Assembly: GCA_025363015.1 (NCBI GenBank)
Contig: JANYEQ010000006.1
Span: 124,001-188,000, forward strand
Source: Bacteroidota bacterium
GTDB lineage: Bacteria > Bacteroidota > Bacteroidia > B-17B0 > Aurantibacillaceae
DNA length: 64,000 nt
Reading direction: 5' to 3'
The stretch's first letter is position 1, and every line of letters starts with the position of its first letter. The notes under the pieces are model-generated. The model searched no databases. It was not told the origin of the DNA and was given only the letters and a program-made list of their open reading frames with translations. The translations under genes were made by a program, and so were the position numbers. Below, one piece after another: positions 22,410 through 29,277 of this stretch.

Positions 22410-23396
22410 TTACTTTCGGAGCAATTTAAATAAAAAATTAGGTATGAATGTGGCACGAATATTATATTTTTTATATCTCATTTGTTTATAGTAGCTATTG
22501 TAATTATGTTTAATATAGGAACTAATAATATAGCAAACTTTAAAATTAAAAAATTTATAATTGTAATGGTAATGTAAGTTAAGATGTTGTAAAAACACAC
22601 TTTGTAGTTGGCTATTTGTAAAAGTTGTTTTTGTATTATAGTTCAAGTCACAATTTCCTGTAACCAGGTTTAGTTTTTTTAATTCGTGGGCATAAATGAG
22701 GCCATTACTAAGTGATGAGAATAGCTGATATACGACAATGGCCCAATCGTTTAAAAATTTAAAATCGTTATTTGATTTAGAGTTATTGTGAATACGGTAG
22801 TGAGATAGTAAATTATTAATACGTTTTATCTTTCCGTTATTTAAAATTGTTTTTACAACCAATTCAAAATCCATTGCGTAATACAAACTATTATTTAAAG
22901 GTGAGATTTTGGCAAGCATGGTTTTAGAAAAAAAAGAGGATGATTGTGGAAAACGCATACAGGCTAAATATTCGTATGGTTCAATATCCTGTTCTAATCC
23001 TATTGTTTTGCTTTTTATATTGCTACCAAACAATAATGCTTTGCCATGCACCAGTGCAATTGTACTATCTTTTATAAAAATATCAACAATTGTTTGTAGG
23101 GTGCTAGGCTCATAATAATCATCGCTATTGAGCCAAGTAACAATATCGCCAGTTGCTACTTTTAGCCCTTTATTAATTGCATCACTTTGTCCATTATCTT
23201 TTTCACTAATCCAATAGGCAATTTTATATTGGTATTTTTTAATAATATTAATCGTGTCGTCTATACTTTCTCCATCAACAATAATAATTTCAATATTTTT
23301 ATAGGTTTGATTTAGTATTGACAGAATTGTTTCTTCAATATATTGCCCTTGATTTAACGTTGGAACTATAATGGATATTTTAAGGCTATTTGTAAT
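22410..23396 (-). CDS. Glycosyltransferase family 2 with no canonical start codon
   Basis: A GT-A transferase of about 328 residues if it starts at the ATT at 23396-23394. Conserved GT2 features run from the N-terminus: ISIIVPTLNQGQYIEE, IEIIIVDGESIDDT, WLNSDDYYEP. The first ATG lies at 23051, well inside the domain and downstream of the DxD motif, so it cannot be the true start. Upstream of ATT there is an in-frame TAA at 23405-23403, and beyond that a lone ATG at 23423. There is no ATG, GTG or TTG between the TAA and the conserved core. Either ATT initiates, or a nonsense mutation has broken a gene that started at 23423, or the assembly has an error. Confidence 0.7.
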   Translation of the reverse strand: MTNSLKISIIVPTLNQGQYIEETILSILNQTYKNIEIIIVDGESIDDTINIIKKYQYKIAYWISEKDNGQSDAINKGLKVATGDIVTWLNSDDYYEPSTLQTIVDIFIKDSTIALVHGKALLFGSNIKSKTIGLEQDIEPYEYLACMRFPQSSSFFSKTMLAKISPLNNSLYYAMDFELVVKTILNNGKIKRINNLLSHYRIHNNSKSNNDFKFLNDWAIVVYQLFSSLSNGLIYAHELKKLNLVTGNCDLNYNTKTTFTNSQLQSVFLQHLNLHYHYNYKFFNFKVCYIISSYIKHNYNSYYKQMRYKKYNIRATFIPNFLFKLLRK

Positions 23397-23406
23397 AGTG
23401 TTTTAA

Positions 23407-24120
23407 TTAATACGAAAAATCATTTCTTGCAAAGAATATTGTTGCAACGTTTTTTAAAATTACGTTTTTAGCAACTATGGTATAACCTAAGTTTTTTAAC
23501 AATACTGCTGAACGATGATTTGAAAGATCGTCAATAGAGGTAATGTTAAGTTCAATAGCAATAACTTTTGGTTTAAATTTTAACCAATCGTTTGAGGTTA
23601 AAACCTCATAATCTAATCCCTCAACATCTATGGTAATAAAATCGATTTCTGAAAACTTAGATTCATGCTTTTCTAAAATATTCTTTAAGGTAAAAACTTT
23701 AACGGGAATTATTTTTGTTACCTCGTTTAGCATTCCATTATGCATTAAACCTTCTTTTGAAAAAGAATTCATAGTTGGACTGTGGGCTATTGTATAATAA
23801 TCCATTGTAATTTCATTTTCTCCAACCCCACTCTCAATATTAATATCTCTTGGTCTAATTTTATTAAACGTTAGCATACTATTAGGCGTAGCGTCAATAT
23901 TAATGCCTCGCCAACCGTTTCGATAAAACAGGTAGGTGTTAGAGTCGCGATAAGGATGAAAGGCTCCTACATCAACATAAAAGCCCTTATAGCCTAAATC
24001 CATTTGTTTTCGAAAAATATTTTGAAGAATAGCATCTTCTCCGCCTTGCGAAAAAAAATAATTAGAAATGTCAACCCCTAAAATAGTTTTGCGAATATGT
24101 TTTTTTAATTTATTAAGCAT
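23407..24120 (-). CDS. FkbM-family SAM-dependent methyltransferase
   Basis: A 237-residue methyltransferase of the FkbM type. The SAM loop is FYVDVGAFHPYRDSNT near residue 47, followed by GINIDATPNSM and the C-terminal IDFITIDVEGLDYEVL near residue 157. These enzymes O-methylate sugars in polysaccharide and antibiotic pathways. The stop at 23407-23409 lies about ten bases from the first usable codon of the GT2 gene downstream. The start is a normal ATG. Confidence 0.85.
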   Translation of the reverse strand: MLNKLKKHIRKTILGVDISNYFFSQGGEDAILQNIFRKQMDLGYKGFYVDVGAFHPYRDSNTYLFYRNGWRGINIDATPNSMLTFNKIRPRDINIESGVGENEITMDYYTIAHSPTMNSFSKEGLMHNGMLNEVTKIIPVKVFTLKNILEKHESKFSEIDFITIDVEGLDYEVLTSNDWLKFKPKVIAIELNITSIDDLSNHRSAVLLKNLGYTIVAKNVILKNVATIFFARNDFSY

Positions 24121-24165: not shown

Positions 24166-25284
24166 TTAATTAAACCTTTTTTTAAAGATAAGTAATTTTT
24201 TTTCAAAAAAACTATAACTAATATAACTTAGCACTATGCTTATAGCTAAAATAATAAAAAACTCTAAGTATAACTTAAAGCTATTAAGTTGTTGCCAACC
24301 TATGCTATTATTTATTTTTTGCATAAAAGATATGCTATACATGTGTAAACAATAAAGGCCATATGTTAAGAGGCCCGCTTTACTTAAAAATTTAAAGTTG
24401 CTTAGCTTATATATTGATTTTTTTGAGAAACATTGTTCTAAAATGACAAATATAAAAAAGAGTGCTAATACAAGTCTTTCACTTATTTTAGTTAAATAAT
24501 TTAAATTATACCAATAGTTTGTAGTAAGTACAACTATCGTTCCGACAATATACATTGCGATTATTTGATATTTTGATAACAAATAAATTTTTTGAATAAA
24601 CCACTGGTTAAAAATAATTAAGTATGCCCCCAAACCTCCCATTGCCATATCAGACATTATACTAAATGTGTGAAAATAAAGAACGTTATAGTTGTTTATG
24701 TTTAGAGCTCTAAAAAATAAACAAAATAGTATTATAGCCAGAAAAACATAAGGAATTATTTTTTTATTGATAAATTTAATTAATATTGGCCAAAATAAAT
24801 AAAACTGCTCTTCAACGGCAATCGACCAAAGAACGCCTAGATTATCATTTCCTGCGCCAGAAAAATTGCTATTAATTCTATCAAAATTTCCAACAAATAT
24901 AAAATAGCTTAAAAAATGATTTTTAATATCGTTAAAATTAAAACTATGCGTTATTAACGGAAACAGAAAAAATCCCAACAATACTGCCAAATAAAATAAT
25001 GGCCAAATTCGTAGTATACGTCTTATATAAAATTTTTTTATATTTATTGTGCCACTATTATTTTTTTCTGTTAAAAGTAAATAAGTAATTAAAAAACCGC
25101 TTAATACAAAAAATAAATTTACCCCAAAATATCCTTTATTAAATACATTTTTTATGATTAATTGGTGAACTGTATTTGTTGTTGTATAATTTAAATAACC
25201 AAAAATATGATACACAAAAACCCACAAAAAAGCTATTGTTCTTAAACCATCTAGGTTTTTAAAATATGGCTTACTTGTATTAAT
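24166..25284 (-). CDS. Acyltransferase family 3 (OafA-like) with no canonical start codon
   Basis: A polytopic membrane acyltransferase of about 372 residues if read from the ATT at 25284. The family's first segment, KNLDGLRTIAFLWVFVYH with the catalytic histidine, is encoded between 25260 and 25210, and ten hydrophobic segments follow; the second mark is VLWSIAVEEQFYLFWP. The nearest standard start is a TTG at 25227, which would remove the conserved LDGLR part of the first helix. The frame is open directly from the TAA that ends the preceding fucosyltransferase gene, with no base between. These enzymes add acetyl or other acyl groups to glycans. Confidence 0.72.
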   Translation of the reverse strand: MNTSKPYFKNLDGLRTIAFLWVFVYHIFGYLNYTTTNTVHQLIIKNVFNKGYFGVNLFFVLSGFLITYLLLTEKNNSGTINIKKFYIRRILRIWPLFYLAVLLGFFLFPLITHSFNFNDIKNHFLSYFIFVGNFDRINSNFSGAGNDNLGVLWSIAVEEQFYLFWPILIKFINKKIIPYVFLAIILFCLFFRALNINNYNVLYFHTFSIMSDMAMGGLGAYLIIFNQWFIQKIYLLSKYQIIAMYIVGTIVVLTTNYWYNLNYLTKISERLVLALFFIFVILEQCFSKKSIYKLSNFKFLSKAGLLTYGLYCLHMYSISFMQKINNSIGWQQLNSFKLYLEFFIILAISIVLSYISYSFFEKKLLIFKKRFN

Positions 25285-26106
25285 TTATAATTGTATTTTA
25301 AAATCGTTACTATTTATTTGTTTGTTTTTGTCTTCAATCATATACAACGGCACATTACCATAAAACGAGGCCCACATTGTATAAGTGCTTGGCGGGCCAA
25401 CAATGTAATTACAGTGTGTCATACAATACATATCTACCAACTCATGATTTGGAGCCAGCGTTAGTTTATGGTTATTTGGGTTTAACTCGTTTAAATTAAT
25501 TTTTTCGTTTGTACAAATTAAAAAATGTACGCTTTTATCTTCAAATAACTTTTTGATAGTATCTATTATATTGCTATACTCGTTTATTGAATAATAATAC
25601 ATGCCATTTTTAAATGTTTTATAATCGCCTCGCCTAATATGAATAGCAATAATGGTTTCAGTACTTAAGTCAAAATTAGTTTTTATAAAGTTATTAATTT
25701 GTGCATTTAACTTTAATGTTGGGGTAAAATATGTTTTTATATTGTCTTTGTGTTTTACAAGCAACTTATCACTTCTGTAAAGCCAACCCTGTATAAAACA
25801 TAGTTTATTTGGGAATTGATTTGGCATATCTAAATCTACAACCTCGTTCCAAGCTATTGATTTTGCATACACTAATGGAAATTTTATATTTAATTTACAA
25901 ATTAAACGAGCAGTGTAATTAGAAAAAAAATAAAATAATTTATAAATTAGTTTAGAGTGTTTTTTTGTTCCTTCAAAATAAGATTGATAATTATAAAATG
26001 CGGGATTTAAAATTTTTATATTATTCTCCAAGCCATAAGCCAAAACATTTGCATATATAAATAGCAAATTTCCTAACTGGCCTGGCTTATTTGAAATAAT
26101 TATCAT
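25285..26106 (-). CDS. Glycosyltransferase family 11 (alpha-1,2-fucosyltransferase type)
   Basis: A 273-residue GT11 protein. The N-terminal KPGQLGNLLFIYANVLA segment, the GDP-fucose motif IAIHIRRGDY near residue 155, and the C-terminal GPPSTYTMWASFYG segment are all typical. It would transfer fucose in alpha-1,2 linkage to a galactose. No GDP-fucose synthesis gene is seen in the window. Its TAA is followed in the same frame by the acyltransferase reading frame. Confidence 0.85.
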   Translation of the reverse strand: MIIISNKPGQLGNLLFIYANVLAYGLENNIKILNPAFYNYQSYFEGTKKHSKLIYKLFYFFSNYTARLICKLNIKFPLVYAKSIAWNEVVDLDMPNQFPNKLCFIQGWLYRSDKLLVKHKDNIKTYFTPTLKLNAQINNFIKTNFDLSTETIIAIHIRRGDYKTFKNGMYYYSINEYSNIIDTIKKLFEDKSVHFLICTNEKINLNELNPNNHKLTLAPNHELVDMYCMTHCNYIVGPPSTYTMWASFYGNVPLYMIEDKNKQINSNDFKIQL

Positions 26107-27261: not shown

Positions 27262-28383
27262 TTATATTTTTAAAATATTACTTAGTTTAATTCTAGACTT
27301 TATGATACTTTCTAAATAATTTCTTTCAATAAATACTTTATCTTCAAGTATACAATTAATTAAATGCTTTGATAATTGAATATAATCGTCAACGGCAAAA
27401 AATGAAACATCACGTTGAATTTGTTCTTTATTAATCTCAATATCAGATGCAATAATATATTTATTTAAAGCTTTTGCGTCTTCAATAACAGTACTCCAAC
27501 CTTCAAATAAGCTAGGTTGTATAACAGCTTTTGAATTTTTTATTAATTCTATTTGATCTTCTCTTGAAATAAAACCAGTAAATGTAACTAATGAATTAAT
27601 GTTGTTTTTATTAATGTAATTTTTTAATTCTGTTACATATTTTTCATTTCTTACATCGTTATGTTTGCCTGTAAAAACAATATGAATGGCCTGGTTTTGT
27701 GTTTTAAGATAATGAATAGCCTGCAAAACAACCAAATGGTTTTTATGTGGCCAAAACTGATTACATACTATAAAATAATTTTGTGGGATAGTAGTTTTTA
27801 AAGTAAACGTATGTTTAACATCCTCAATTAATGAAACAAAGCTATATACATTAATAAGCGCCTGTGTATTTGGATAAAATTGCAACAAGTGATTCTTAGA
27901 GTCATTGCTCGAAACAACAATGTTTTTAGTATGGGTAGTTATGTTTTTAAAATTAGTATCTCTTTTTATAATTTCTTCTTTTGAAAATAATTCAGGTAAA
28001 AATTTGTGTTGAAAATCGTATAACCAATAGTATGCCTTGCAATTTAATTTTTTGTGCGCCTTATCATAATTAATTAAAGGATAAATAGTATTTAACTTTA
28101 AAGCATTTATATCTTTTACAAAACGATAATTACTTTTAGTAACGGCTCCCATTATTTTACAAAATAGTTTGTATAAAAATGGTTTGTTATCAAGGTTTGT
28201 AAATTGTACGTTTTCTAAATTTAGCTGCTCTATAAGCTCTTTAGTGGTTGTGTTATTTATAATAACTATCACTTTTAAAGAGGTAGTAATAGAAATTTGT
28301 TGTAATAATTTTATAATATTTAGGGAGTAGTACAAGCCGCCAGCCCAACTATAATCACCTGTTAATAGTATACCTATTCGCAT
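27262..28383 (-). CDS. Glycosyltransferase family 4
   Basis: A 373-residue GT-B transferase. The C-terminal domain begins near residue 205 with FIVCNQFWPHKNHLVVLQA, and the nucleotide-sugar motif is AVIQPSLFEGWSTVIEDAKA, with the two glutamates of the E-x7-E signature. The N-terminal GDYSWAGGLYYSLN is the acceptor-side glycine loop. The ATG follows immediately after the stop of the epimerase gene, so they are probably coupled. Confidence 0.87.
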   Translation of the reverse strand: MRIGILLTGDYSWAGGLYYSLNIIKLLQQISITTSLKVIVIINNTTTKELIEQLNLENVQFTNLDNKPFLYKLFCKIMGAVTKSNYRFVKDINALKLNTIYPLINYDKAHKKLNCKAYYWLYDFQHKFLPELFSKEEIIKRDTNFKNITTHTKNIVVSSNDSKNHLLQFYPNTQALINVYSFVSLIEDVKHTFTLKTTIPQNYFIVCNQFWPHKNHLVVLQAIHYLKTQNQAIHIVFTGKHNDVRNEKYVTELKNYINKNNINSLVTFTGFISREDQIELIKNSKAVIQPSLFEGWSTVIEDAKALNKYIIASDIEINKEQIQRDVSFFAVDDYIQLSKHLINCILEDKVFIERNYLESIIKSRIKLSNILKI

Positions 28384-29277
28384 TTATTTATTTTTTAACC
28401 AATTTGTATATTGCTCTAATCCTTGTTGAATAGAGAAGCGAGTCGAAAAACCTATTTGTTTTAATTTGGTAACATCTGCTAAATAATGAATTGGGTCGCC
28501 AACTCTTACACGATTATTAAAACAGATTTTGAAACTAGTATTCAATTGATTTAAAAATAAAGTTACTGCATTTTTAATTGATGTTGCTTGACCAGATGCT
28601 ACATTTATAACGTCTGCATTAAAAACACAGTTTAAAATTATTTTTTCAACCGCTTGGCATAAATCATCAATATAGATAAAATCGCGGGTTTCCTCACCGG
28701 TTCCTTCTAAATAAATGGTTTTGCTTATTAACGCTTTTTGATATACATCCCAAAACAATTGTTTTTGTAATTTGGGGCCATATACCGAAAATACACGTAA
28801 ACTTAATGTTTGTATGTTGTGTTGAATAAAAAACTCTTTGCAAATAATTTCGCTCATTAATTTGTGCCAACCATAAGGCGATACTGGTTTTGATTCTTGC
28901 TGTTCTATAACCGGTAACTGAAGTGAATTCCCATAAATGGCTGCACTTGAAAAATTTATAAATTTACAATTGGGGTTGTGTATCCGAATAGCATCTAATA
29001 ATAAAAAAACGTTTAACGTGTTTAATTTATAATCTAATAAGGGTGATGTATTTGAAAAACCAACCGAGCCTGAACCTGAAGCATTAATACAAATATCATG
29101 TTTTTTGTTTTTAAAAAGAAAATAAAAATCCTCTGTATCTAAATTAATTTTAACATAATTAGCTTTTGTATTATCAATTATATCCGCAAAAAAAACAGTA
29201 TAATTAGTATTAGCTAAAAAATAAGCGCATAAATTTTGTCCAATAAAACCCTCTGAACCTATGATTAAAATTTTCAT
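28384..29277 (-). CDS. NAD-dependent nucleotide-sugar epimerase/dehydratase
   Basis: A 297-residue extended short-chain dehydrogenase: IIGSEGFIGQ at residues 4-13, SSAAIYGNS, the catalytic Tyr-Lys pair in SPYGWHKLM near residue 151, then RVFSVYGP and EGTGEETRDFIYIDD. The product nucleotide-sugar is unknown; the ETRDFIYIDD segment is shared with GalE/RmlB relatives. It begins 9 bases after the methyltransferase stop. Confidence 0.86.
   Translation of the reverse strand: MKILIIGSEGFIGQNLCAYFLANTNYTVFFADIIDNTKANYVKINLDTEDFYFLFKNKKHDICINASGSGSVGFSNTSPLLDYKLNTLNVFLLLDAIRIHNPNCKFINFSSAAIYGNSLQLPVIEQQESKPVSPYGWHKLMSEIICKEFFIQHNIQTLSLRVFSVYGPKLQKQLFWDVYQKALISKTIYLEGTGEETRDFIYIDDLCQAVEKIILNCVFNADVINVASGQATSIKNAVTLFLNQLNTSFKICFNNRVRVGDPIHYLADVTKLKQIGFSTRFSIQQGLEQYTNWLKNK

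Follow-up and report, generated by a model that had tools for sequence, protein, structure and literature searches.

The acyltransferase 3 gene of the window (the whole 64,000-nucleotide stretch of a Bacteroidota genome analysed here) is most probably a separate gene that is translated from an AUU codon at position 25284, directly behind the stop codon of the fucosyltransferase gene; judging from the sequence, we assign this reading a probability of about 0.8. The original prediction had offered AUU initiation, readthrough into a fusion protein and an error in the stop codon, and AUU initiation is the best of the three. It is supported by TTG and GTG in the corresponding column of two sister species, and by the exchange of such codons with ATT or ATA, which recurs across genes and species. 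AUU, together with AUA, thus appears to be a recurrent start codon in a Bacteroidota genus that lacks Shine-Dalgarno sequences, and it is probably weak and limited by initiation factor IF3. AUU starts as such are already known, and what is new here is chiefly the recurrence of AUU and AUA across genes and species together with the absent Shine-Dalgarno sequence.

The Acyltransferase Frame Opens with ATT

The features of the locus are compiled in Table 1. Pfam identified an FkbM methyltransferase, two GT2 genes and one GT61 gene as neighbours of the acyltransferase gene, and the locus is an exopolysaccharide-type operon. On the minus strand the junction reads ATA CAA TTA TAA for the end of the GT11 gene, immediately followed by ATT AAT ACA AGT AAG, then CCA TAT TTT AAA AAC, then CTA GAT GGT TTA AGA. 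The acyltransferase frame opens with this ATT, without any gap after the GT11 TAA and in the same frame, exactly as originally described, and closes with the TAA at 24168-24166. No ATG, GTG or TTG is present in this frame ahead of the conserved LDGLR motif. The match to PF01757 spans residues 9-357 of the protein and positions 2-325 of the 326 in the profile (E 5.6e-30; 104.9 bits, cut-off 31), while the match of the upstream gene to PF01531 is partial, with positions 135-265 of 298 (E 9.3e-8; 32.1 bits, cut-off 23.9). The start region is A/T-rich and its RNA structure is nothing special (z -0.73).

Table 1. Positions in the window of the genes and start codons discussed in the text.
Feature	Position	Strand	Remarks
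GT2 glycosyltransferase (PF00535)	22410..23396	(-)	ATT 23396-23394 is the only usable start
FkbM-type methyltransferase (PF05050)	23407..24120	(-)	ATG start; between two genes with apparent ATT starts
Acyltransferase 3 gene (PF01757), 372 codons	24166..25284	(-)	Putative start codon ATT 25284-25282
TTG, first canonical codon of the acyltransferase frame (codon 20)	25225..25227	(-)	Rejected as start
GT11-type fucosyltransferase (PF01531), upstream gene	25285..26106	(-)	ATG start; TAA 25287-25285 abuts ATT
TAA followed by ATG, zero-gap stop/start with canonical start, same operon	28381..28386	(-)	Neighbour at 28384/28383

A stop codon that directly abuts a start codon was found for 6 of the 458 clear ATG genes of this genome. 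Since TAA followed by ATG without a gap occurs elsewhere, the in-frame adjacency at the junction is not special; the absence of a canonical start codon is.

The Start Column Is Conserved in Homologues

In homologues from other Bacteroidota an ATG is mostly located 8-11 codons before LDGLR, and the ATT of the query lies at 10. Within the same genus, the codon aligned with codon 1 of the query is TTG in G001, a complete single-contig genome, and GTG in G009. The acyltransferase of G001 is 56% identical over residues 3-371 to that of the genome containing the window (G000), and G001 also keeps the pair of GT11 and acyltransferase genes, with 53% identity for GT11. The ATT therefore stands where orthologues have their canonical starts, and no canonical codon occurs either at the conserved N-terminus or ahead of it. 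As the canonical starts of the homologues fall into the same column, the position of the start is fixed, which supports AUU at this place. The original prediction had considered that homologues might reveal a clear start further downstream; a canonical start was indeed found, but in the same column. The distance between the start and the upstream stop is 0 nt in G000 and 1 nt in G001, a spacing as close as that of termination-reinitiation pairs.

The closest acyltransferase homologue in our genome collection (L003:4992-6125) also has no canonical start codon and carries ATA at the homologous position.

Further Genes without a Canonical Start Codon

We sampled 0.96 Mb of this genome, comprising 670 coding frames, for genes without a canonical start codon at the homologous position. 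Flags based on codon usage only were often false positives, and homology was used in their place. Besides the acyltransferase gene, six genes were found: GT2, miaA, rnhA and an ArnT-like gene with ATT, the last one assigned by codon usage only, and an hddC-like guanylyltransferase gene and an MBOAT acyltransferase gene with ATA. All seven candidate start codons (five ATT, two ATA) are thus of the AUN type, and none is CTG or another near-cognate codon.

The GT2 gene had been put forward in the original prediction as a parallel case within 2 kb. Its ATT is the sole usable start, as predicted, but two codons separate it from the preceding in-frame TAA, and it is located 10 nt after the FkbM stop. 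In the same column the G008 orthologue has TTG, and G034 has ATG one codon upstream. For rnhA, the ATT column is occupied by TTG, GTG or ATG in relatives, and the ATA of hddC corresponds to ATG in relatives. The MBOAT gene (L150:4121-5785) and its orthologues on G005:C4 and G018:C5 have no canonical start in any of the three species; the aligned codons are ATA in this genome and ATC in G005 and G018.

The seven starts lie between -5 and +42 nt from the upstream stop on the same strand, compared to 32% of the clear ATG genes within -25 to +40, a distance that is indicative only, since our detection favours short leaders.

Start Codons of miaA across the Genus

Recurrence across species was seen for miaA, a conserved housekeeping gene for tRNA modification. 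Sequences from 20 species of the genus were aligned; starting at the P-loop and going upstream, the alignment has no gaps. Column -12 relative to the P-loop holds ATT in 10 species, ATA in 3, TTG in 3, GTG in 2 and ATG in 1 (19 of the 20 species); only G006 deviates, with ATC at -13. In columns other than -12 and -13, start-like codons are present in at most 3 of the 20 species. Six species (G000, G003, G006, G011, G017 and G021) have no ATG, GTG or TTG anywhere from the in-frame stop to the P-loop. An upstream TTG is available as an alternative to ATT in G001, G005, G009, G018 and G020, and a canonical codon at -11 is the likelier start in G002 and G015, which have ATA, and in G016, which has ATT (TTG follows ATT in one species, ATG follows ATA in two). 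Only ATG, TTG or GTG was found for miaA in ten species from other families of the class.

Against the background of 0.015 in neighbouring columns, the frequency of ATT at -12 corresponds to a binomial p of about 1e-13, with shared ancestry ignored. When the likeliest start was scored as AUN or not and G000 was left out, the genus differed from the outgroup with p=0.005; counting only species without any alternative start gave p=0.10.

Alternative Explanations

The ATT could stem from an error in sequencing or assembly, or an ATG could have mutated very recently; in either case the ATT would have no biological meaning. The assembly is a draft of 143 contigs, a population mixture is conceivable for the acyltransferase codon taken alone, and a single G-to-T change would convert TAA followed by ATG, an arrangement present elsewhere in the operon, into the observed junction. 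We nevertheless regard this as improbable, considering that at least six more genes in 0.96 Mb have ATT or ATA in the start position of otherwise open frames, and that independent assemblies of sister species have ATT in the same miaA column. An error in the stop codon, as originally proposed, is not needed either, because the cases of GT2, miaA, rnhA and hddC are independent of that TAA.

Slightly less probable still is translation from the TTG at 25227, giving a protein without the first 19 residues. TTG commonly serves as a start in this genome, and in 106 of the 670 frames no other canonical codon comes before it. As the original prediction stated, this start would remove LDGLR, and with it part of the first helix, both of which are kept by homologues; the PF01757 match drops from 104.9 to 86.0 bits, with profile positions 2-12 lost. 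A score of the sequence context, computed without the start codon itself and compared with clear ATG genes and random ATT codons, was +3.1 for the ATT at 25284, placing it within the range of the clear ATG genes, though only at their 30th percentile, and at the 93rd of random ATT. The TTG scored -10.3, under all clear ATG genes.

Readthrough of the TAA would produce a fusion of GT11 and acyltransferase, as allowed by the same frame and the lack of any base between TAA and ATT. A chance of one in three already exists for same-frame adjacency, however, zero gaps also occur with ATG, and TAA is the commonest stop of this genome (566 of 670). In G001 (L083) the GT11 TAA is at 1491-1493, and after one further base the acyltransferase begins with its own TTG at 1495 in a different frame. 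Readthrough could not give a fusion there, which contradicts this option of the original prediction. No fused gene was present in 112 loci with an acyltransferase homologue, and the GT2, miaA and other cases do not need readthrough, which we consider very unlikely.

Equally remote is the idea that the gene is decaying or silent and has no working start: a canonical start is lacking and polysaccharide loci turn over quickly, but 372 codons are open without a stop or frameshift, the identity with G001 is 56% over residues 3-371, and the conserved miaA has the same start in several species.

Possible Mechanism of AUU Initiation

For AUU initiation at the acyltransferase gene, we propose that the initiator tRNA with anticodon CAU would form Watson-Crick pairs with the first two bases of AUU and a mismatch with the third, a pairing that IF3 may weakly tolerate, so that fMet would presumably be the first residue. 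In vitro, the initiator with CAU can be used on AUU, and this is lowered by IF3 (PMC10158994). Like Bacteroidota genes in general (PMC6847099), the acyltransferase gene shows no Shine-Dalgarno sequence, and initiation would depend on a context that is rich in A and free of structure, and on ribosomes that have terminated at the stop just ahead and may reinitiate. We expect little expression of the acyltransferase, and a sensitivity of this expression to IF3; such a weak start could be enough for genes that are needed in small amounts or receive their ribosomes from the gene in front.

Loss of IF3 was rejected as a cause: IF3 was found in 57 of 60 genomes, with no obvious loss in the alignment of the genus. 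The infC gene of the genus itself appears to start with ATT or ATC (L341 G000, L344 G005, L345 G018, L346 G020, L348 G011), and in several species GGAGG precedes this codon by a few nt, even though a Shine-Dalgarno sequence is generally absent from genes of Bacteroidota. An AUU or AUC start of infC combined with GGAGG points to a continued discrimination of IF3 against AUU. The genome of the window contains two IF3 genes, G000:C87:59585-59839 (L295) and G000:C133:12594-12848 (L341). The copy on C87 has an ATG start and differs from the type of the genus; it may stem from a contaminating contig (contamination is 1.33%) or be an acquired copy.

Among 29 tRNA genes found, in a listing that lacks some tRNAs, three have a CAU anticodon and one of these is initiator-like, with the GGG/CCC anticodon stem. 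A second initiator tRNA reading AUU was not seen among the 29 genes of this incomplete listing.

In its broadest form, our proposal is that AUU (with AUA) would be an ordinary fourth start codon of the genus, used without a Shine-Dalgarno sequence in a percent or more of the genes, including miaA, and exchanged with ATG, GTG or TTG between species, while IF3 and the autoregulation of infC are apparently intact. We see the chances of this as evenly balanced.

Comparison to Known Systems

In E. coli, infC, encoding IF3, and pcnB start with AUU, which leads to low, IF3-dependent initiation and in the case of infC also serves autoregulation. Similar to these examples, the genes described here would be normal bacterial genes with an AUU start, and infC of the genus also has an apparent AUN start. 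In E. coli this is a rare exception, whereas here the acyltransferase, GT2, miaA, rnhA and other genes are concerned, with no evident Shine-Dalgarno sequence. In S. aureus, cvfC1 has an AUU and ccpN an AUA start, with initiation at about 10% of AUG, and the AUU/AUA starts of cvfC1, ccpN and infC are all conserved and rely on an extended Shine-Dalgarno sequence (PMC13009471). For E. coli infC, for cvfC1 and ccpN and for sigR of Streptomyces, the unusual start has been proven with reporters or genetics. The starts in our genus share the codons with these cases but have no Shine-Dalgarno sequence, and the codon is exchanged with ATG, TTG or GTG between species. Streptomyces sigR has a GTC start that is repressed by IF3 and holds this operon gene below its neighbour (PMC5472188); the likeness is a non-canonical start in an operon gene, while the codon, the Shine-Dalgarno-type site and the known stoichiometric purpose differ. 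Coupling by termination-reinitiation (PMC6728339, PMC10666635) is resembled in the short distances of the seven starts to the upstream stop. In some sister species the closest ORF stop ahead of miaA is apparently about 100 nt away, and the gene seems uncoupled; coupling is thus not general. Routine AUU starts in Bacteroidota were not reported in the literature searched, a search with most subscription papers outside its coverage.

Gene finders that accept only ATG, GTG and TTG truncate or miss such genes: the acyltransferase would lose LDGLR, and the GT2 protein would be deprived of the catalytic part at its N-terminus. Should AUU be a normal start in a lineage without Shine-Dalgarno sequences, miaA of this genus would represent a natural experiment on start-codon strength, with five codons in one column across many species, and the discrimination by IF3 without Shine-Dalgarno pairing would become testable.

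Frequency of Genes without a Canonical Start Codon

By homology, genes without a canonical start numbered 6 of 392 in four genomes of the genus versus 1 of 363 in 80 other loci (Fisher p=0.075), with flags judged by eye. The comparison is biased upward, since homologues of four of these genes had been fetched beforehand. The control consisted of the 80 loci already fetched, nearly all from Bacteroidota, and its sole case is the L003 acyltransferase with ATA at the same place. A genome-wide excess of AUU/AUA over other Bacteroidota is suggestive only.

Two further frames were noted in the sample of G001. One gene (C1, about 1054369-1055148; L173) lacks a canonical codon around its N-terminus, where CTG AAA AGA ATA is the likely start, and its homologue in G000 has a TTG/GTG start. 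In the other (G001:C1, about 1408654-1409703; L163), a prfB-like frame, the first canonical codon comes 94 codons in, as would be expected if it contained the programmed frameshift known from release factor 2.
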